The notes under the pieces were generated by a model that saw only the letters and a list, made by a program, of their open reading frames with translations, ran no database searches and was not told the DNA's origin. DNA of 64,000 nt. Origin: Verrucomicrobiota bacterium (GTDB taxonomy: Bacteria > Verrucomicrobiota > Verrucomicrobiia > Opitutales > UBA953). Below are positions 20,343-29,207 of this stretch, in pieces. Every line of letters starts with the position of its first letter. Position 1 is the first letter of the stretch. The translations under genes and the position numbers were made by a program. The stretch lies in contig BJHS01000009.1 of the NCBI GenBank assembly GCA_014193315.1, positions 1-64,000 on the forward strand, in the 5' to 3' direction.

Positions 20343-20870
20343 TCAAGCCGCGGTCGGCTCGATCGGTTCAATGGACTGCAGTAAGTCAGGCTGAGAGAGG
20401 TTCGGCATGACCATGTCATGGATTTCCCCCCTCGGCAAATCGAGGTCCGCCGGCAAATCGATGGTGACCGAAGCCACGCCACCGGGGGCCTCGACCGAGG
20501 TCGGCATCTCGCCAATCTCAGGCATGTCGTCCCCGGCGGAGGTCTCCGCGTAAAGGACGAGGCCGGAATACTCGGCGGGGATGCGGACCTGCAGTTCGAC
20601 GAAGACCAAGGCGAGCAGGCAAAGGTGGGCGAAGGAGCGGCCGGCACGCTGGGCGAAGGCGTGCAACCAGAGCATCGCCTGACGGGGCGAAGCCGTCTCC
20701 TGCTTGATCAGGTAGGCCATCTGGGCGCGATGCAAACGCAGGCGCGCCTGGAAGCGCTGGTGCATCTCCGGCGAAGACTTGATGGCATCGCGCAGACGGA
20801 CGACCTGCGCCCGGGAGGCCGACCCCTCAAGGTAAAGAACAATCAGGGACTCGAGCTCGGCGTTACTCAT
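20343..20870 (-). CDS. Probable anti-sigma factor, single membrane segment
   Basis: The 175-residue protein has an N-terminal helical region (SNAELESLIVLYLEGSAS, PEMHQRFQARLRLHR) like the sigma-binding domain of ECF anti-sigma factors. One hydrophobic segment (FAHLCLLALVFVEL, about residues 80-95) follows, then an acidic Pro-rich tail that would face the periplasm. The zinc-binding HxxxCxxC motif of ZAS anti-sigma factors is absent. Its ATG overlaps the sigma factor stop (ATGA), the classic arrangement for a sigma/anti-sigma pair. Function is inferred mainly from position. Confidence 0.7.
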   Translation of the reverse strand: MSNAELESLIVLYLEGSASRAQVVRLRDAIKSSPEMHQRFQARLRLHRAQMAYLIKQETASPRQAMLWLHAFAQRAGRSFAHLCLLALVFVELQVRIPAEYSGLVLYAETSAGDDMPEIGEMPTSVEAPGGVASVTIDLPADLDLPRGEIHDMVMPNLSQPDLLQSIEPIEPTAA

Positions 20871-21457
20871 GTGCGAAACTCATCCCCCATGAGGTCGCGC
20901 AAGGCCTCGCGGGCCCGATTAATCCGGCTTTTGACCGTCCCGATGGAGAGCCCGAGTTCCTCGGCGATTTCCTCGTAGGACATGTTCCGCACGTTGCGCA
21001 TGGTGAGAATACGAGCGTGTTCCGGCTTCAATTGTTCCATGCACTCGGCCACTTTATCGACGAATTCGTTCTGCTGGGCTTCCCGCCCCGGGCCTTGGCT
21101 GCCGTCGGACAGGATATCGTGCAAGGTCGCCCCCGGGTCATCCCCGAGGTCGGCGTCCAATGACATCGACTGGTCGCGCTTGCGCCGGCGCCAGTACCAG
21201 TAGCGGTTGCGGGCTAGATTGATCCCGATCTGATGGATCCAGGTCGAGAAAGTCGCCGTCCCGCGAAAGGAGGCCAAGACCCGGTGGGCCCGAATAAAGG
21301 TGTCCTGGGTGATTTCCTCCGCGTCTTGCCGATTGCGCAAGAGGGAGAACACTTTAGCAAAAATCCGCCCCTGGTAACGAAGCACGAGCTCGTTATACGC
21401 CGCAAGATCCCCGCCGCGGGCGCGGTCGAGGGCGGACTGGTCGGCTTCGGTCTCCAT
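20867..21457 (-). CDS. ECF RNA polymerase sigma factor
   Basis: The 196-residue protein has sigma region 2 (YNELVLRYQGRIFAKVFSLL, QDAEEITQDTFIRAHR, FSTWIHQIGINLARNRYW) and region 4 (LKPEHARILTMRNVRNMSYE, EELGLSIGTVKSRINRARE) joined by an acidic linker of about 45 residues, with no regions 1 or 3. This is the layout of extracytoplasmic-function sigma factors. It is co-translated with the membrane protein downstream. It is divergent from the GTPase-like gene cluster across a 113-bp gap, so it probably controls itself and perhaps that cluster. Confidence 0.93.
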   Translation of the reverse strand: METEADQSALDRARGGDLAAYNELVLRYQGRIFAKVFSLLRNRQDAEEITQDTFIRAHRVLASFRGTATFSTWIHQIGINLARNRYWYWRRRKRDQSMSLDADLGDDPGATLHDILSDGSQGPGREAQQNEFVDKVAECMEQLKPEHARILTMRNVRNMSYEEIAEELGLSIGTVKSRINRAREALRDLMGDEFRT

Positions 21458-21570
21458 GGTTTAGGGGTGGATTTCGGGTGGGAATACCAGACAATGGTGG
21501 TGACATCCCTGTAGGATTCAACTGCTGTCTGCAACCCTTTACCCGCCGCCCTGCCCGCCCTCCGGAGACC
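21458..21570. promoter_or_regulatory. Divergent promoter region, sigma factor / GTPase-like operon
   Basis: These 113 bp separate the two divergent starts (sigma ATG 21457, NTPase ATG 21571). Sequences such as GGAATA (21481-21486) and GTCTG/GTCTGC are compatible with ECF-type -35 and -10 elements, but no pair has convincing spacing. An autoregulated ECF promoter is expected here by position only. Confidence 0.35.
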
Positions 21571-23328
21571 ATGTTTTCCTCAACTAAGAAAAGCCCCACC
21601 TTCCGATGGGTCAATTGCCTGAATGGCGCCCGGGGGTCCGTGAATCAGTTGCCCTTCCACCTCCCCGCCGGCGCCCCGACGCCACAGGTCGAGATCCTCG
21701 CGGCCCCCGAAGGCCTCACCGTCTCCCCGTCGGGCGGGCGGTCCATCCTGCTTAACGGGGTCCCGACCACCCGCCCGGTGGTGATTTCCGACACCGTCAC
21801 CCTGCAACTCGACGACACCCTGCTCGTCCTCAACCCCTCCGAGGAGGACACCTTCGAGGAAGTCCGCACGGACGCTTGGATGCTTTTCGACGCAACCTCC
21901 GGCGAACTGCTTGGTGAATTCGCGCCGCAAGACCTCCTCGATCGGGCCACCGAGTTCGGGCGCGCCCCCGAACACCTCGCCTGTACCCCCAGCGGGCTCG
22001 AGGTCGGCTTCTCGCTCACGCTGGCCGCGCCGCTGCTTTCGCCGCGCGAAGAAGCCGCCGCCACCGCGAGCCGCCCGGTGCTCGCCGCCGAACAAAACCG
22101 CGGGACGCACCTCTGCCCCGTCTGCTGGACGCGGTTCGACGCCGGCGACGCCTTAAGCATCGCCGTCCATGAGGACCTGCGCGGCGACCCGATTCTCGGC
22201 TCCGACGCCCGGTTGCGCTTCCACCCCACCCGCTTCAACGACCATGGGCTCGCCCTCGACCCCATGGGGCTGGCCTGCACCGACATGGCCTGCCCGCATT
22301 GCCGGCGCCAGTTACCACCGGGGTACTTGGACATGCCCCACCGGATTCTTTCGCTGATCGGCGCGCCGAGTTCCGGCAAGTCCTACTACCTCGCGGTACT
22401 GACGCGGGAATTGCAGGAACGCCTGCCGAAGGACTTCGGCCTCGCCTTCAAGGATGGCGACCCGAGCGGCAACATGCTGCTCAACCAGATGCGCAACACG
22501 CTCTTCTCGGCCGCGACGCCGGAGGATGCCTTGCTGGGGAAAACCGCGCTCGAAGGCGCCACGTACGAAAAACTGCCGAGGCTCGGCCGCATGGTCTCCC
22601 TCCCCCGTCCTTTCATCTACGCCCTCAGCCGACCCGACGCGAAGAAGCAGGAGACTTCCCTCATCCTCTACGACAACGCCGGCGAGCATTTCGAGCCCGG
22701 CGTCGACATCCACGACTCCCCCGGCGCGATGCACGTCGCGACCTCCTCGGGACTCATCTTCCTTTTCGACCCGACCGCCAACGCCCGCTTCAAGGCCCGC
22801 CTTGTCGGCGTCGACGACCCGCAGCTCAGCCTGAAAGGGCGCATCGACCAGCAGGACAGCATCCTCGCCGAGATGGAGACGCGGATCAAACGCGTCATGG
22901 GCCTCGCCCACGACCAACGCATCGCCACCCCGCTCGCCTTCGTGGTCGGCAAGTGCGACACTTGGGAGAAGCTTCTGGATTCACCCCTCGAAACGGTCAT
23001 GCGGGACGGCACCCTCGACCTCGCGGCCATAGATTGCAACTCGGCGCGCGTCCGCCGCGTCCTCGTCGACCTCTGCCCCGGCTTGGTGGCATCCGCCGAG
23101 TCCCTCGCCGAGGAGATTCGCTACTTCGCCGCGACCTCCTTCGGCCATAACCCCGTGATCATCCAGCAGGGCCCCAACAAGGGGCGCATCGCCCCCGACC
23201 CGCAACGGCTGGCGCCCGCGCACGTCGAGGAACCAGTCTACTGGTTGCTCCACCGTGCCTCCCCCGAACTCCTGCCTTCCGCCGCCCCGCGGAAGCCAGC
23301 GCCGACCTCCGCCCCTCGCGGCGCCTGA
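21571..23328 (+). CDS. Zinc-ribbon GTPase-like (TRAFAC-type) NTPase
   Basis: The start at ATG 21571 (585 residues) is chosen because upstream codons fall in the promoter gap. Residues 1-150 form a beta-rich region vaguely like an FHA fold (ILLNGVPTTRPVVISDTVTL). Two Cys pairs (CPVC 182-185 and CPHC 241-244) make a split zinc ribbon. The P-loop GAPSSGKS is at 264-271, DNAGE at 368-372 matches a GTPase G3 (DxxG), and GKCD at 460-463 resembles G4 (NKxD). All three argue for a GTPase rather than an ATPase. It is separated from the GAP1-like gene by one base. I infer it is the motor or switch of a GTPase-associated system; the trigger is unknown. Confidence 0.75.
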   Translation: MFSSTKKSPTFRWVNCLNGARGSVNQLPFHLPAGAPTPQVEILAAPEGLTVSPSGGRSILLNGVPTTRPVVISDTVTLQLDDTLLVLNPSEEDTFEEVRTDAWMLFDATSGELLGEFAPQDLLDRATEFGRAPEHLACTPSGLEVGFSLTLAAPLLSPREEAAATASRPVLAAEQNRGTHLCPVCWTRFDAGDALSIAVHEDLRGDPILGSDARLRFHPTRFNDHGLALDPMGLACTDMACPHCRRQLPPGYLDMPHRILSLIGAPSSGKSYYLAVLTRELQERLPKDFGLAFKDGDPSGNMLLNQMRNTLFSAATPEDALLGKTALEGATYEKLPRLGRMVSLPRPFIYALSRPDAKKQETSLILYDNAGEHFEPGVDIHDSPGAMHVATSSGLIFLFDPTANARFKARLVGVDDPQLSLKGRIDQQDSILAEMETRIKRVMGLAHDQRIATPLAFVVGKCDTWEKLLDSPLETVMRDGTLDLAAIDCNSARVRRVLVDLCPGLVASAESLAEEIRYFAATSFGHNPVIIQQGPNKGRIAPDPQRLAPAHVEEPVYWLLHRASPELLPSAAPRKPAPTSAPRGA

Positions 23329-23329
23329 C

Positions 23330-25468
23330 ATGCCCCTGCAACTGATCTTCACCTCCGCGCGCCAAGGACTCGTCCCTGGCCGCTCCGGTTTCTGCACCCT
23401 CGCCCGCCATCGTGCCATGCCGGAACGGCTGGCGCAGCTGCTGGAAAGCCTCGGGACGCCGCATGAAGGCGCCGATGGGGCCACTTTCACCTTCCGTATC
23501 CTCGAAGCCGCCGGCCAGCATTGGTATGTGCTCTCCCGTTTCGTGGCCCGCGGTCTCGACTACACCCAGCGCGATAATCGCCTCGCGCATCACTTGGCGT
23601 TCTCCCAGGAGGAAGCCACGATCCTCCCACCGGCGGCGGCGCTCGCCTACCGCTGGGCAGGCTGGAAGGATGAGTGGACGGGCGACCCTCTCTGGCTGGA
23701 AGACGAAGCCAAGCCTTTGGCGCTCAAACCCGCCCCGGCGCTGACGCCGGCCGCGTCTTGGCGGCAGCTCACCGGCACGGGAGCCAAGGCCGCCTGGCTG
23801 GTGAATGCGAGCGGACCGGCGGACTGCGCCCTGCTCAATGGCCCTGAAACCGAAACCGTGCTGCGTCTCTTCGCCGAGTCCGCCGCGCTGCTCGGCAAGG
23901 CGGGATGGGCGGCGACCTTCACCACCAACGTCACCCTCACCGGCGACGATGGCTTTCGCTGGTGCATCGGCCTCGCCCCGGGGCACGCCGATATCGACCT
24001 GGCCAACGCCGCCAGTCAACCCGCCCCGACCGGCGAGCATGCCCGCCTAGCGGCGATGGGTGTCGGGCCGACGACCGCCGCCCAGCCCACCCCGACCGCG
24101 CCTAAAAAAACCCGCACGGAGAAAGCCGCCGATGATAAGGGCCCGTCCGTCGGCTTGATTCTCCTGGTCTCGGCCGCCCTGCTCCTCGCGGGCTTCCTCG
24201 GCTGGAAAGTCATGCAGGCGCCGTCGCCGCCGCCGCCTCCCGTGGTCACCACCCCGGTGGCTCCGCCCGTGGACACCGCCAAGGCCGATGAGATCATGAA
24301 GGCCAACCTTGCCCTCAAGGATATCGATGGTCTCATCGATCGCGAAGAATTCATCGACGCCGCGAAACTCTGGTTCGAGACGATCGCACTGTCCCCGGAC
24401 TTCGCCGCCCGTCATCGCACGCGGGTGGTCCCCCGCCTCACCGCTCGCTTCGCCGAGGTGACCGCGAGTCGCTTCATCCAGCGACTCGACAGCCTCCCCC
24501 CCGGCGGCGACGGCAAGGATGCCGCGGCCTTGGTGAATGAATTGCAAGAGGCCCTGCGGATCGGCGCCCAGCTGGAGGCCCCGCCGGACGAGGCCTGGAA
24601 ACAGCTCCAAGGCATCGCCAGCCGAGCCGCCCTCATCGCGTCGCTCGATGTCCGGCCGACCCTGCTCGTCACCGGCGCCTGGGAAACCGGCGACAATGGC
24701 CCCGCGGGGCCGTCCCAGTCTCACTTCACGCTTTCCAATGAAGCCGGCCTGCGCCTGACCAAATTCTTGGAGAACAGCGGGGTCAGGGCCAATAATTCGA
24801 TCGCGGTGCAGTTACGCCTCCTCCCACTCGTGAAACTCCATGCGCGCGAGCCCAAGGTTCGCCCGCTGATGGGCGAGATCCGCCGCGGGGGCCAGGGCCT
24901 CTGGGTCGAGGCTCGTGCCGAGCCCGGCCAACTGAATCGCCCCATCGTCATCGGGGTCGGTCCGCGGGCGAACGCCATCGACCTCGCCTTCCGCGACGGC
25001 GAAGCGCGGAATTTCCCGGAGACGAATCGGCTCATCGAATTGACCCTCCCGAACGGTGAACGACTGGCGTTGGCGCTCATCGCGAACCCCCGCGCCCTCC
25101 AACCCCTCGACCTCGGGCTGGGCGGCCTCCGCCAAGATGCCGACACGGGCGTGGTCCGGGCCGCGGCCTGGGCGGAGCAAGCCGTCCATGCCGTCGCCTG
25201 GGTCGGCGGCACCGCCGGCCTGTTCCCTTCCGGTCATGAATTCCCGGACCGCGACCTTCCCTCGCTCCGGGCCACCCGGTCCTCGCTCGACACCGACCTC
25301 ATCCGCCTCGAAAGCAAATCCGGCCCAGGCACGCCATCCTCCGCGATCCTGACGGAACGCCGACGCCTCTTCATCGCGGCCGACCTGATCCGGGCCGGCG
25401 CCCCTTGGAAGTTGACCATCGTCAGCCCGCGCGGCGAGGAACTCCCCACGCTCATCGAATTCCGCTGA
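23330..25468 (+). CDS. GAP1-N2-like membrane protein (GTPase-associated)
   Basis: The 712-residue protein starts at ATG 23330, one base after the NTPase stop. The N-terminal ~225 residues (LQLIFTSARQGLVPGRSGFC, a conserved DYTQRDNRLAHHLAF) resemble the N-terminal domain of GTPase-associated protein 1, type 2, which I recall from computational work on NTP-dependent conflict systems. A linker leads to one transmembrane helix (about 272-295, SVGLILLVSAALLLAGFLGW), then a Pro-rich segment and a ~390-residue C-terminal region with no recognised domain. With a cytoplasmic N-terminus the C-terminal part would be outside the cytoplasm. No homology search was possible, so the family match is from memory of its motifs. 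Confidence 0.68.
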   Translation: MPLQLIFTSARQGLVPGRSGFCTLARHRAMPERLAQLLESLGTPHEGADGATFTFRILEAAGQHWYVLSRFVARGLDYTQRDNRLAHHLAFSQEEATILPPAAALAYRWAGWKDEWTGDPLWLEDEAKPLALKPAPALTPAASWRQLTGTGAKAAWLVNASGPADCALLNGPETETVLRLFAESAALLGKAGWAATFTTNVTLTGDDGFRWCIGLAPGHADIDLANAASQPAPTGEHARLAAMGVGPTTAAQPTPTAPKKTRTEKAADDKGPSVGLILLVSAALLLAGFLGWKVMQAPSPPPPPVVTTPVAPPVDTAKADEIMKANLALKDIDGLIDREEFIDAAKLWFETIALSPDFAARHRTRVVPRLTARFAEVTASRFIQRLDSLPPGGDGKDAAALVNELQEALRIGAQLEAPPDEAWKQLQGIASRAALIASLDVRPTLLVTGAWETGDNGPAGPSQSHFTLSNEAGLRLTKFLENSGVRANNSIAVQLRLLPLVKLHAREPKVRPLMGEIRRGGQGLWVEARAEPGQLNRPIVIGVGPRANAIDLAFRDGEARNFPETNRLIELTLPNGERLALALIANPRALQPLDLGLGGLRQDADTGVVRAAAWAEQAVHAVAWVGGTAGLFPSGHEFPDRDLPSLRATRSSLDTDLIRLESKSGPGTPSSAILTERRRLFIAADLIRAGAPWKLTIVSPRGEELPTLIEFR

Positions 25469-25472
25469 CCGC

Positions 25473-28421
25473 ATGCAGCTTGACCGCCTCATCGCCCGCA
25501 TCCGCGGCCAACTCGAGCTCGGCAGCCCCGACCTCGAGGCCCGCTCGCTCGCCGGCGAATACGCCGCCCTCTGCCTCCGTGCCCGGGAACGGCTGGAACA
25601 ATGCGCGTCGCTCATCCGGGGCGGCCAGGAACACGCGGCGTTCCAGGTGGCGGAAACGGAGCCGGACCTGCTGGGGCTCTGCGCGCAACTCAGCTTCGCG
25701 GAGTCGGAACGCTGGCATGCGCTTTGCCGCGAACGCGGCCTGCCCACGGGCTTCCCCCTCGACGACCAGCACGTGATCGCCCTGGAAGGCCTCTACGGCA
25801 AGGAGATCGGCGAAAACCACCCGCTCTACCGGGATTACCGCGATGCGATGCGCACCCGGCAGGAAGACCGCGCGCTGACCATCCTCCGCTCCATCGTCCG
25901 CATCAACCCGGAGGACCCGAACGCCCGCTCCGAACTCAACCGACTCTCGACCAAGTTCCTCCGGGAGGCGGTCGGCAAGGTCGCCGCCTTCTTCGCCGGC
26001 GGCCGCCAGGAGGAAGCGGTCACGCTCATGAAGCGCATGGAGCTTTTCGGCGCCAGCGCCCTCACGGGGGAACCGCAATGGGACGCCGCGCTGCGCTCCC
26101 GGCGCGACTGGCTCCGGACCAAGGCCCACGAGCAGATCATCCATGCGGTCGAGGAGGCGGAAGCCGCCCGGGCTGGCGACCATTGGGAAAGCTGCGCCGC
26201 CGCCGTCGGGCGTGCCCGCTCACTGGAACGCGATCACCAGATCAACCTGGCGGACCCGTTGGCGCAACGCCTCGCGGTGCTCGAAGGATGGGCCGGGGAG
26301 CTCGCCGCCACCGCCGAAGCCGAAGCCGCCCTGCGGGCTTCGCTCGAGACCCTGACCGCCGAATGGCGCGAACTCCAGCAAGCCGCCGCGCGCGGCTCCT
26401 CGCCAGCCACCCTCATCGCCCGACTCGGTGCCTGGCTGGAGCGGGCGCTCCCCTTGGCCGATCGCCTGCCCGAGGGGCTGGTTCGCGATGCGCGGACCTT
26501 GCGCCAATTAACCCGGTCCCGCCTGAGCCGGCGCTATGCGCTGATGACGACCGGACTGGTCGTCGCCGTACTCGGCGCCGGTACCGTCGCCTTCCTCTGG
26601 TGGCGAGGCGAAGCGGCGGACCAGGAAGCCCGCGAACGGTTCGCGACCGCTGGCTTGGCCGTGGAGCGAGGCGACCCGGAGACCGCGACCCGCCTGCTCG
26701 ATGAGCTGCGTGCCCGCAGCCCGCAGCTCGTCGAGGAGCCCGCCCAACGTCAGGCGGAGGAAGCACTACGACAGTTGATCGCCACCCAACGCGAGGCGCT
26801 GCAACGACTGCAGGCCGAGGCCCGCTACCTCCGCACGCGCCAAGCGGAGGGCCTCACCCTCGCCGGGCTCGCGGACATCCGTAAGCGGACCGCCGCCTTC
26901 GCGGAAGAAGCCGGCAAGCTCGGCCCGGCAGGCCAAGCCACCTTGGGGAAGATCCTGCCCGAGGCCCCGAAGCTCCTCGCGGAAGCCGCCCGGCTTGAGG
27001 AGCAGGCCAACGCCGACTTGACCGCCGCCCGACGCCGCTTGCGCCAGGCGATTGGCGAGACCGAGAATATCGCGGACGCCGGCAAGTCCGTGACCGCGCT
27101 CGACCAACTGCGCAACTTACTTGACCAACTGAAGCTCGCCGGTCTCCCAAACCTCGACGAAGCCTACGCCGAAGCCGACCGCGCCGGCAGCCGACTCGAC
27201 GACGAGCGTAAGTCGCTCGGCGCCGCGAAGGCGCTCGAGACCACGGCCGACCTCAAATCCTACCTCGGCGCCCTCAAGGCCGCGACGGACGCCGCGCCCG
27301 AAAAATCCGACCTCCGCCTGCGCAGCCAGGTCGTCCTGGAGCGCGCGGAGACCTTACGCAACCTTCCCCGGGCCGCCTTGGCTCCCCGACTCGGCGCCAT
27401 GTGGGACGGCTGTGCGACCTCCGACCCGCTGGGCGTCTTCCAGCCGAAGGACCCGGCCGAAGGTGAGATCAAGATCCTCCGGCAGCTCGCGGATGAGGGC
27501 ATTTTACGCTCGTTGCGTAAATTCAGCGTGGTCGCCAACTCCGGCCAAGGGCTGCGCGTGGTCCGCTCCGTCTTCGTCGTGGGCGAGCTGAGCCAATCGC
27601 GCGCCTCCTTCGGCGATGGCATCGAGACCCGCGTCGAAGGCAAGGAACTGACCCGCGAAGGCGTGCTGGTCGATGCGGTCTGGAGCCGACGCGACTTCAC
27701 CAATGGGGTTAAATCCGGCGAGGAGCTGCAGGAGGGCCTGATCATTCCCGAGGTCGAGTACCTCCGCAACCTGGGACGGTTCCATGACCCGAAGACCGGC
27801 CAGTTGGCCGAGCCGCTCCTGCGTACGCTCGACCGCCTTCGGCGCGGCACCGCCCCCTACATCGAGGTGCGTGCCTACCAGTTGCAGGAACTCTTCCGGC
27901 TTGGCGCGCAACGACCCGAAGCCTGGGGCCTGCTCTACTCCCCGTCCGCCCAGCGCGACGCCGAGCAACTCCGTCGCATCACGGCCAACCGGATGGGGGC
28001 GTTCGACTTCCTTTATAAAGACAAGTGGGCCGAGGCCCAGACCGAGCTGAAAGTCTTCCTGCTCCCGCGGACCGGCCCTTCCTACGCGGACGAGGCGCGC
28101 TTCTGGCGCACCGTTCTCGGCACGCTGCGGGAGCGGGCGTTGATCTTCGCCGGCCACGTCGGCCGCGATGGCAAGGCCTCGCTCCGCGACCCGCTCAACA
28201 ACGTCGTGCTCTACGGCATCGACACGGAAGGCAAAGCCACCGTCCTTTTCCAGGTTAATGCGGAAGGCACGGCGGTGCGGGTCGCCGAAGCCGCCCCGTG
28301 GACCCCGCTGCTGCGCTTGCCCGGCACCGTCGCCGAAGCCGCGCAGGCCGCGGGCATTCCCGCCGGGCTCCAACCCCCGATCGGCGGCTGGGAAGCCTTG
28401 CTGCAAGGTCGCGACCTCTGA
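25473..28421 (+). CDS. Large membrane-anchored coiled-coil protein, function unknown
   Basis: The 982-residue protein begins 5 bp after the GAP1-like gene stop. Residues 1-350 are helical and TPR-like in character, with many Ala/Arg/Glu. One hydrophobic segment (about 356-377, MTTGLVVAVLGAGTVAFLWW) follows. After that comes a long predicted coiled coil (about 385-620, rich in Ala-Glu-Arg-Leu) and a C-terminal mixed alpha/beta domain. No catalytic motif was recognised. The topology mirrors its neighbour: soluble N-terminus, single helix, large C-terminal region. Its place in the operon suggests a structural or sensing partner of the NTPase. It is the largest gene of the cluster. Confidence 0.65.
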   Translation: MQLDRLIARIRGQLELGSPDLEARSLAGEYAALCLRARERLEQCASLIRGGQEHAAFQVAETEPDLLGLCAQLSFAESERWHALCRERGLPTGFPLDDQHVIALEGLYGKEIGENHPLYRDYRDAMRTRQEDRALTILRSIVRINPEDPNARSELNRLSTKFLREAVGKVAAFFAGGRQEEAVTLMKRMELFGASALTGEPQWDAALRSRRDWLRTKAHEQIIHAVEEAEAARAGDHWESCAAAVGRARSLERDHQINLADPLAQRLAVLEGWAGELAATAEAEAALRASLETLTAEWRELQQAAARGSSPATLIARLGAWLERALPLADRLPEGLVRDARTLRQLTRSRLSRRYALMTTGLVVAVLGAGTVAFLWWRGEAADQEARERFATAGLAVERGDPETATRLLDELRARSPQLVEEPAQRQAEEALRQLIATQREALQRLQAEARYLRTRQAEGLTLAGLADIRKRTAAFAEEAGKLGPAGQATLGKILPEAPKLLAEAARLEEQANADLTAARRRLRQAIGETENIADAGKSVTALDQLRNLLDQLKLAGLPNLDEAYAEADRAGSRLDDERKSLGAAKALETTADLKSYLGALKAATDAAPEKSDLRLRSQVVLERAETLRNLPRAALAPRLGAMWDGCATSDPLGVFQPKDPAEGEIKILRQLADEGILRSLRKFSVVANSGQGLRVVRSVFVVGELSQSRASFGDGIETRVEGKELTREGVLVDAVWSRRDFTNGVKSGEELQEGLIIPEVEYLRNLGRFHDPKTGQLAEPLLRTLDRLRRGTAPYIEVRAYQLQELFRLGAQRPEAWGLLYSPSAQRDAEQLRRITANRMGAFDFLYKDKWAEAQTELKVFLLPRTGPSYADEARFWRTVLGTLRERALIFAGHVGRDGKASLRDPLNNVVLYGIDTEGKATVLFQVNAEGTAVRVAEAAPWTPLLRLPGTVAEAAQAAGIPAGLQPPIGGWEALLQGRDL

Positions 28422-28424
28422 GCC

Positions 28425-29072
28425 ATGGCCGACCAAGCCACGTTCAAACTCCGATGGAAGGGCACCGTGACCGGCCCCTTCCCGCTCGCCCGTATCACCG
28501 ACATGCTGCGCACCGGCGAGATCAGCCTCTTGCACAACATCGAGGTCGACGGGAAATGGACCACGGTACGCGACTACTTCCGCTCCACCGGGCTGACGCG
28601 AGCGCACACCCCAGGGGCCGGCTTTGCCGCCCCGCTCTCACCCTACGCGATCGGCGACGAACCGCCGCCCCCACCCGGCGCCCCCGGCACGGATGCACAC
28701 CCCACCCCGCTCCGCCGCCGGCTCAGCCCGTCGGAAATCCTCGAGCGTTCGGTGCGCGAAGGCTACCTTTGGTGTGGTGCCACGTTCCTGCTTCCCCCGA
28801 TCTTCGCTCTGATGGTCTTCCCCATGTCCTGGCTCCAGAACCGACCGGTGAACGAGCTCCGCTCCTTCGACCTGGCGGCCGTCTTCATCCTCGCGACCCT
28901 CATCGGCAGTTTCCTGCCGTTGATCTTCGTCCGACGGATCGGCGCGACCCTTACCCAGGCGGGCCTCAAAGAGGAAGGCGAGGCGCAGACCAAATTAGCG
29001 GTAATCCTAGGCTTTTCCGGGGCGATTCTCTGGTTGGCGATGTGCGGGTGGTACCTCAGCCACCGCCTCTGA
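28425..29072 (+). CDS. GYF_2-domain membrane protein
   Basis: The 215-residue protein starts 3 bp after the preceding stop. Residues 1-55 match the bacterial GYF_2/DUF4339 domain (FKLRWKGTVTGPFPLARITD, then LHNIEVDGKWTTVRDYF), a peptide-binding module for proline-rich segments. A Pro-rich linker precedes three hydrophobic segments (CGATFLLPPIFALMVFPM, LAAVFILATLIGSFLPLIFV, KLAVILGFSGAILWLAM). Pro-rich stretches in the GAP1-like neighbour (after its membrane helix) are possible ligands, an inference. It ends the operon; the tRNA follows 58 bp later. Confidence 0.75.
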   Translation: MADQATFKLRWKGTVTGPFPLARITDMLRTGEISLLHNIEVDGKWTTVRDYFRSTGLTRAHTPGAGFAAPLSPYAIGDEPPPPPGAPGTDAHPTPLRRRLSPSEILERSVREGYLWCGATFLLPPIFALMVFPMSWLQNRPVNELRSFDLAAVFILATLIGSFLPLIFVRRIGATLTQAGLKEEGEAQTKLAVILGFSGAILWLAMCGWYLSHRL

Positions 29073-29130: not shown

Positions 29131-29207
29131 GGTAGCGTAGCTCAGTTGGTTAGAGCGAGGGACTCATAAGCCCTAGGTCGGCAGTTCGATCCTGCCCGCT
29201 ACCACCA
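29131..29207 (+). tRNA. tRNA-Met (anticodon CAT), CCA encoded
   Basis: The 7-bp acceptor stem GGTAGCG/CGCTACC is perfect. The D stem is GCTC/GAGC, the T arm GGCAG-TTCGATC-CTGCC, and the anticodon loop CTCATAA places CAT at 34-36. The discriminator A and CCA are encoded. The anticodon stem AGGGA/GCCCT has an A-G mismatch at the base pair next to the loop (31-39). The acceptor pairs fully from its first base, so it is not initiator tRNA; the similarity to elongator tRNA-Met favours Met over tRNA-Ile2 (lysidine-modified CAT), but the latter is not excluded. Confidence 0.92.

Follow-up and report, generated by a model that had tools for sequence, protein, structure and literature searches.

A four-gene DO-GTPase-GAP1 membrane locus in Verrucomicrobiota and the stator genes linked to it in relatives

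In the window, a stretch of 64,000 nucleotides from a Verrucomicrobiota bacterium (GCA_014193315.1, contig BJHS01000009.1), four adjacent genes, here called A to D, encode one of the GAP1-N2 DO-GTPase systems already described in the literature; this variant has a fixed large protein C and no detectable FNIII partner. The new content is twofold: the system is tightly linked to a PMF-type stator in relatives of the window, and the divergent ECF sigma factor gene is demoted to a neighbour. In our best explanation, to which we give about even confidence, A–D form a GTP-switched inner-membrane complex, supplying gate and transmission to an envelope machine that was proton-driven in its ancestral form and whose own stator is absent here.

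The four genes and their products

The six open reading frames of the locus are intact, with the coordinates and spacings that an earlier sequence-only reading had given them. The features are as follows.

20343-20870, minus strand: anti-sigma-like gene (ANTI), with one predicted membrane helix (79-97) and no family match; a neighbour
20867-21457, minus strand: ECF sigma gene (SIG), judged a neighbour and no obligate part of the system
21458-21570, no strand: divergent gap between SIG and A, with the element TGACA-N11-TTCAAC (window copy 21501-21522), which is kept in many genus members
21571-23328, plus strand: gene A, a 585-aa cytosolic DO-GTPase-type protein
22114..22302, plus strand: zinc-ribbon cysteines C182, C185, C241 and C244 of A, invariant alignment columns
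22360..22383, plus strand: G1 motif GAPSSGKS of A (residue 264), invariant in the alignment
22672..22686, plus strand: G3 motif DNAGE of A (residue 368), with the glutamate in Walker B
22948..22959, plus strand: G4 motif GKCD of A (residue 460), invariant apart from its third residue
23330-25468, plus strand: gene B, a 712-aa GAP1-N2 protein with one membrane helix
25473-28421, plus strand: gene C, a 982-aa single-helix protein
28425-29072, plus strand: gene D, a 215-aa GYF-like protein with three membrane helices

The ANTI and SIG genes overlap by 4 bp, A starts with the ATG at 21571, and the intergenic gaps A/B, B/C and C/D measure 1, 4 and 3 bp. A tRNA-Met gene lies directly 3′ of D (29131-29207).

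We surveyed the neighbourhoods of the best 80 of 427 A relatives from a scan of species genomes, and further loci were taken from whole genomes. Among the non-genus Verrucomicrobiota loci with enough flanking sequence, B follows A on the same strand and in the same order in 54 of 60, and both B and C follow it in 46 of 60. D was detected in 29 of the non-genus loci of the phylum, a lower bound because D is short and divergent. The proposal that A–D belong together is thus upheld: the genes stay together in a kept order across Verrucomicrobiota, and the scattering named beforehand as evidence against the grouping did not occur. The exceptions to the A-B-C set are types having A and a short GAP1-N2 protein, and Puniceicoccales of the termite gut, in which A stands without detectable B, C or D (L069, L072, L076, L077). 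In one phylum-level group PilM-like (and PilO-like) genes come after A-B-C in place of the stator (L121:14368-16221, L122:14005-16612). Within the genus, the ANTI-SIG / A-B-C-D block is flanked by ptsI/hisC and rsfS/nadD/lpxI/panB; the four genes and their place are identical genus-wide, and a gene set varying between close relatives was not seen.

The GTPase motifs read in the zinc-ribbon protein A hold throughout its relatives. GAPxxGKS, DNAGE and GKxD are invariant in all 29 aligned sequences, with identity down to 42%; G4 differs between them at its third position (GK[CSY]D). The motifs are therefore no chance occurrence, and the loss of motifs in homologues that had been named as a counter-indication was not found. 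The CxxC/CxxC zinc ribbon is likewise invariant (29/29). DO-GTPase2 (PF19993) matches the window's A weakly (24.1 bits, below the cut-off of 27), and matches occur in 29 of the 29 aligned sequences. At the N-terminus, an FHA domain is recognised in two of the 29 (best E=7e-6), and the stretch that follows this FHA-like part looks GYF-like by eye. A phmmer search of A against solved structures gave no match.

B carries GAP1-N2 (PF20013; E=9.1e-17, 61.8 bits, cut-off 24), as do all 26 aligned B sequences (the window and 25 relatives). The sequence-only reading was right about the domain, whose absence from a Pfam search would have spoken against it, but not about its extent: the match spans residues 4-120 rather than 1-225. 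The single membrane helix that it assigned to B is predicted at residues 273-291. The structural model (pLDDT 85, pTM 0.60) places the GAP1-N2 part first, followed by the helix, a helical bundle, a beta-sandwich and an alpha/beta end, and the parts after the helix are predicted to lie outside. No GAP1-M or GAP1-C was matched by Pfam in B or its 25 relatives, a search that a divergent version might escape, and Pfam found no FNIII in A–D. The beta-sandwich weakly resembles Ig folds (Z 3.9). As fold candidates for B, STAT-type coiled coils (Z 7) and Ig-like sandwiches (Z <4) were set aside, since the tool rates such levels uninformative.

C agrees in prediction with its earlier description as a mostly coiled, single-helix protein of 982 residues, the helix lying at 357-375. 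In its model (pLDDT 85, pTM 0.47), a helical domain, the helix, a coiled arm and a mixed C-terminal domain follow one another; the helical N-domain is predicted inside, and the coiled arm and C-terminal domain outside. The topology calls for A–D use hydropathy and charge only, and the positive charges N-terminal of the helices in both B and C suggest an N-inside topology. C has no sequence match to the TolA/TonB families. The fold candidates separase and designed or 14-3-3-type helices (best Z 8.7 over 74 residues, rated uninformative by the tool) and a weak DHC_N2 match (E=0.011) were dismissed. In one relative (L159:3497-8197, minus strand), C is fused behind a trypsin-like domain, which is probably inactive because its GNSGGP-type motif reads GNEGGP.

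D had been called a GYF-domain membrane protein. Its membrane character stands, with three predicted helices, and the GYF assignment comes through relatives: GYF_2 is recognised in 6 of 22 aligned D sequences (best E=1.6e-4), but in the window's own D it is below detection. At D's place, one relative has a protein that combines a GYF-like part with an intramembrane protease domain of the PrsW type (L127:2-1165, minus strand). An NCBIfam search of A–D gave no match.

A channel and two ExbD-like partners in relatives

In phylum-level relatives, three small membrane proteins are encoded downstream of C or D. The first is a MotA/TolQ/ExbB protein (PF01618; 38-46 bits in the three relatives tested, above the cut-off of 22.9). 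Each of the other two has a single helix near its N-terminus, preceded by an invariant Asp, of the FQD type in 16 of 16 partner proteins (one reads VD) and of the LLLD type in 12 of 12. This Asp sits at the position of the ion-carrying Asp of ExbD, TolR and MotB. An operon with the channel and two ExbD-like proteins is present in 22 of the 60 loci; a scan of all loci gave 19 with the channel, and later loci added more.

The association is strict in one direction. At a threshold of E≤1e-100, this channel type occurs in 28 of 388 genomes of the phylum, and all 28 have A, while it occurs in none of the 315 genomes without a solid A (Fisher p=3e-23, with shared descent ignored). A and the channel lie within 12 kb of each other in 26 of 27 same-contig pairs, at a median of 6.8 kb. 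Conversely, 45 of the 73 A-bearing genomes are without the channel. A second, longer MotA/ExbB-type family (about 400-570 aa, about 120-240 bits) is found in many Verrucomicrobiota, also in those without A. The channel link in relatives suggests a machine that works across the cell envelope.

The nearest stator-bearing lineage belongs to the window's own order and has the full seven-gene operon (G037 and G440, overlap of the pieces verified). In the window's genus, none of the 33 loci with sequence after D carries the stator channel, and the window's genome is without this channel type and has four other MotA/ExbB proteins. In addition, no sigma-adjacent locus carries the stator. On a quick A tree, the sigma-adjacent state changes three times and the stator-bearing state eight times, with L127, L156 and L157 mislabelled because these loci end before their stator. 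Stator-bearing loci fall on either side of the midpoint root and also adjoin the window's clade. The simpler reading of this tree, whose deep forks are weak, is that the stator was lost in the window's lineage rather than gained elsewhere.

The sigma factor and the history of the locus

Does SIG control A–D? The sequence-only reading had supposed so, and the comparison leaves such control in the genus unsupported. SIG has ECF regions 2 and 4, and ANTI matches no protein family. SIG relatives occur in 63 of 69 Opitutales genomes at E≤1e-20 and number about 35 at E≤1e-45; only 8 of these 35 strong relatives are divergent neighbours of A. No A–D genes were found near the 11 SIG loci that lie away from A, and in all five of these with gene lists the gene next to SIG starts like ANTI. 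Among 13 sister-lineage gaps with the divergent layout, the ECF-type pattern TGAAAC-N16-CGTCTA faces SIG in eight and A in none (up to 2 mismatches allowed; shuffles averaged 0.27 and reached at most 2). At some SIG genes without A, weaker patterns of a similar kind also face the gene itself. Upstream of A, most of the 13 sister loci show by inspection a TTGC-type hexamer and, spaced as in sigma-70 promoters, a possible -10.

In the genus, the gap has TGACA-N11-TTCAAC in place of TGAAAC-N16-CGTCTA, and neither orientation of this element allowed a reading as a promoter. As a regulon motif it was rejected, being present in a single copy in the window's genome. A subgroup (e.g. L025-L037) has TATCTTTACA in its place. 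Since SIG mostly occurs without A or away from it, the ECF promoter of the sister lineages faces SIG and never A, and the gap element is single-copy, we treat SIG/ANTI as a neighbour and not as an obligate part.

The distribution of A argues against a core envelope function, as A is present in only 73-79 of 388 sampled genomes of the phylum, about a fifth. Within the genus, A or pieces of it were found in 35 of 37 genomes. One of the others (G011) was rejected as a true A-less member: its LpxI neighbour is missing too, and the gap is probably one of assembly. A different genus of this family (G228, G201) has lost full-length A, and neither a full A nor the SIG gene was found there. These two genomes encode, beside an rpe-like gene, a protein of 150-175 aa like the N-terminus of A (L114:7595-8062, L115:7731-8201).

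Median identities to the window, taken over at most 12 loci from the genus and its closest relatives, are 72% for A, 52% for B, 53.5% for C, 45% for D, 93% for SIG and 52% for ANTI; the housekeeping proteins HisC, PtsI, NadD and RsfS stand at 72%, 69.5%, 62.5% and 58.5%. Pairwise dN/dS is 0.12-0.26 for A–D and about 0.015 for SIG. The housekeeping-like identity of A and the dN/dS of A–D point to ordinary purifying selection and no arms race. SIG, at 93% against 45-72% for A–D, probably has other duties.

Mechanism, rival readings and known systems

How could A–D work? A, a DO-GTPase with a zinc ribbon, would lie in the cytosol, where the GAP1-N2 domain of B would read it; the other half of B would cross the membrane and probably sense or contact something periplasmic. 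In C, a helical domain in the cytosol would be tied to a long arm in the periplasm, and D may be an adaptor in the membrane that probably binds a partner peptide through its GYF-like domain. In many other lineages, the MotA/TolQ/ExbB channel and two ExbD-like partners complete the operon; there the stator would be gated by the GTP state, with C passing force or signal outward. Where the dedicated stator is missing, as in the window's lineage, A–D may monitor envelope integrity and act as a scaffold for it, or they may rely on one of the genome's four other MotA/ExbB proteins. The housekeeping-like rate of A, the dN/dS of A–D and the DO-GTPases of Psp membrane-stress operons favour an envelope role; the limited spread of A in the phylum, the 45 A-bearing genomes without the channel and the loss of full-length A elsewhere in the family weigh against this explanation. 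More tentatively, and with rather less than even confidence, we propose that the system is a new kind of envelope machine—a proton-driven stator gated by a GTPase/GAP1 pair, with two unlike ExbD-like subunits and a periplasmic arm of its own—that is widespread in Verrucomicrobiota, the window holding a stator-less derivative that keeps the GTP switch and the arm.

Three other readings deserve weight. That A–D form an immune system, detecting infection at the membrane and setting off a response as has been proposed for DO-GTPase-GAP1 systems generally, and working like Zorya where the stator is present, is unlikely, yet it keeps an appreciable share of our confidence. The main text of Kaur 2020 (PMC7159879) classes DO-GTPase-GAP1 systems as conflict systems, A is patchy across the phylum, and the relatives' channel weakly matches ZorA models (best E=1.4e-7). 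These matches, however, are limited to the shared channel domain; PADLOC gave no meaningful match for A–D, no nuclease or other toxic effector was recognised at the locus, and the gene set and its place are fixed in a genus where A evolves like housekeeping genes.

That SIG/ANTI turns on A–D under envelope stress draws on the divergent layout in the genus and in sister Opitutales, on the conserved gap element and on the PrsW domain of one D relative, PrsW-type proteases being known to cleave anti-sigma factors. Against this stand the SIG orthologues without A or away from it, the ECF promoter directed at SIG (8/13) and never at A (0/13), the single copy of the gap element and the far greater conservation of SIG, and we regard this reading as improbable. 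We give just as little credence to the idea that A–D lost their original role along with the stator and now serve an unrelated, lineage-specific task such as cell shape or division. The genus does lack the stator, B, C and D change faster than A, and some relatives are down to A alone or A with a short B; but all four genes are under purifying selection, the motifs are invariant, and C and D are retained as in stator-bearing relatives. A GTP-switched complex derived from a proton-driven machine remains our preferred reading.

In the literature searched, we found no demonstrated mechanism for DO-GTPase-GAP1 systems. The strict link to a PMF-type channel would give them a concrete physical output and ties them to the stators of Tol, Exb and Zorya. 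The window's locus, syntenic and vertically inherited, offers a natural stator-less comparison, and setting the sigma factor apart from A–D ends a tempting but weak regulatory story.

Among known systems, SigW/RpoE-like ECF sigma factors with membrane anti-sigma factors resemble SIG/ANTI in the ECF regions, the overlapping gene for a membrane partner and the TGAAAC-N16-CGTCTA pattern at sister SIG genes, but ANTI belongs to no known family and control of A–D is unsupported. With the Tol-Pal and Exb-Ton stators, the relatives share the channel signature and the Asp, and C, by analogy with TolA/TonB, would be the long periplasmic arm protein; the GTPase-GAP1 pair is an addition, and C does not match TolA/TonB. 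Zorya (ZorAB) likewise ties a MotA/ExbB-family channel and partners with an Asp at the membrane edge to other machinery, as the relatives do, but it differs from them in their two unlike ExbD-like partners and the GTPase and GAP1, and from the window in that no stator is present; PADLOC matched no ZorC/D or ZorE effector among A–D.

The closest kin are the GAP1-N2 DO-GTPase systems. The main text of Kaur 2020 (PMC7159879) reports them in verrucomicrobia and classes them as conflict systems, and it describes GAP1 fused to C-terminal membrane helices, planctomycete GYF proteins with trypsin or membrane-rich regions, and an FNIII-repeat partner as usual for the GAP1-N2 type. It gives high variability of components between close relatives as a general trend and no strict criterion. 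The trypsin fusion of L159 and the PrsW GYF-like protein of L127 fit its description. A later survey (PMC11237479) places DO-GTPases in gammaproteobacterial Psp membrane-stress operons. The arrangement is thus less new than the sequence-only reading supposed, since GAP1-N2 systems, membrane-helix GAP1 and membrane-rich GYF proteins are already in Kaur 2020 as far as its main text goes; the stator trio goes beyond it. ExbB, TolQ, MotA, proton and sigma factor are absent from that main text, and its figures or supplement may show a stator link. A–D share with these systems the TRAFAC-type zinc-ribbon DO-GTPase with the Walker B glutamate, all found in A, as well as the membrane-helix GAP1-N2 protein directly downstream (B) and the membrane GYF protein (D). 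They differ in that no FNIII protein, GAP1-M or GAP1-C was detected, and in having a constant large C, a fixed gene set and relatives with a MotA/ExbB-type stator.
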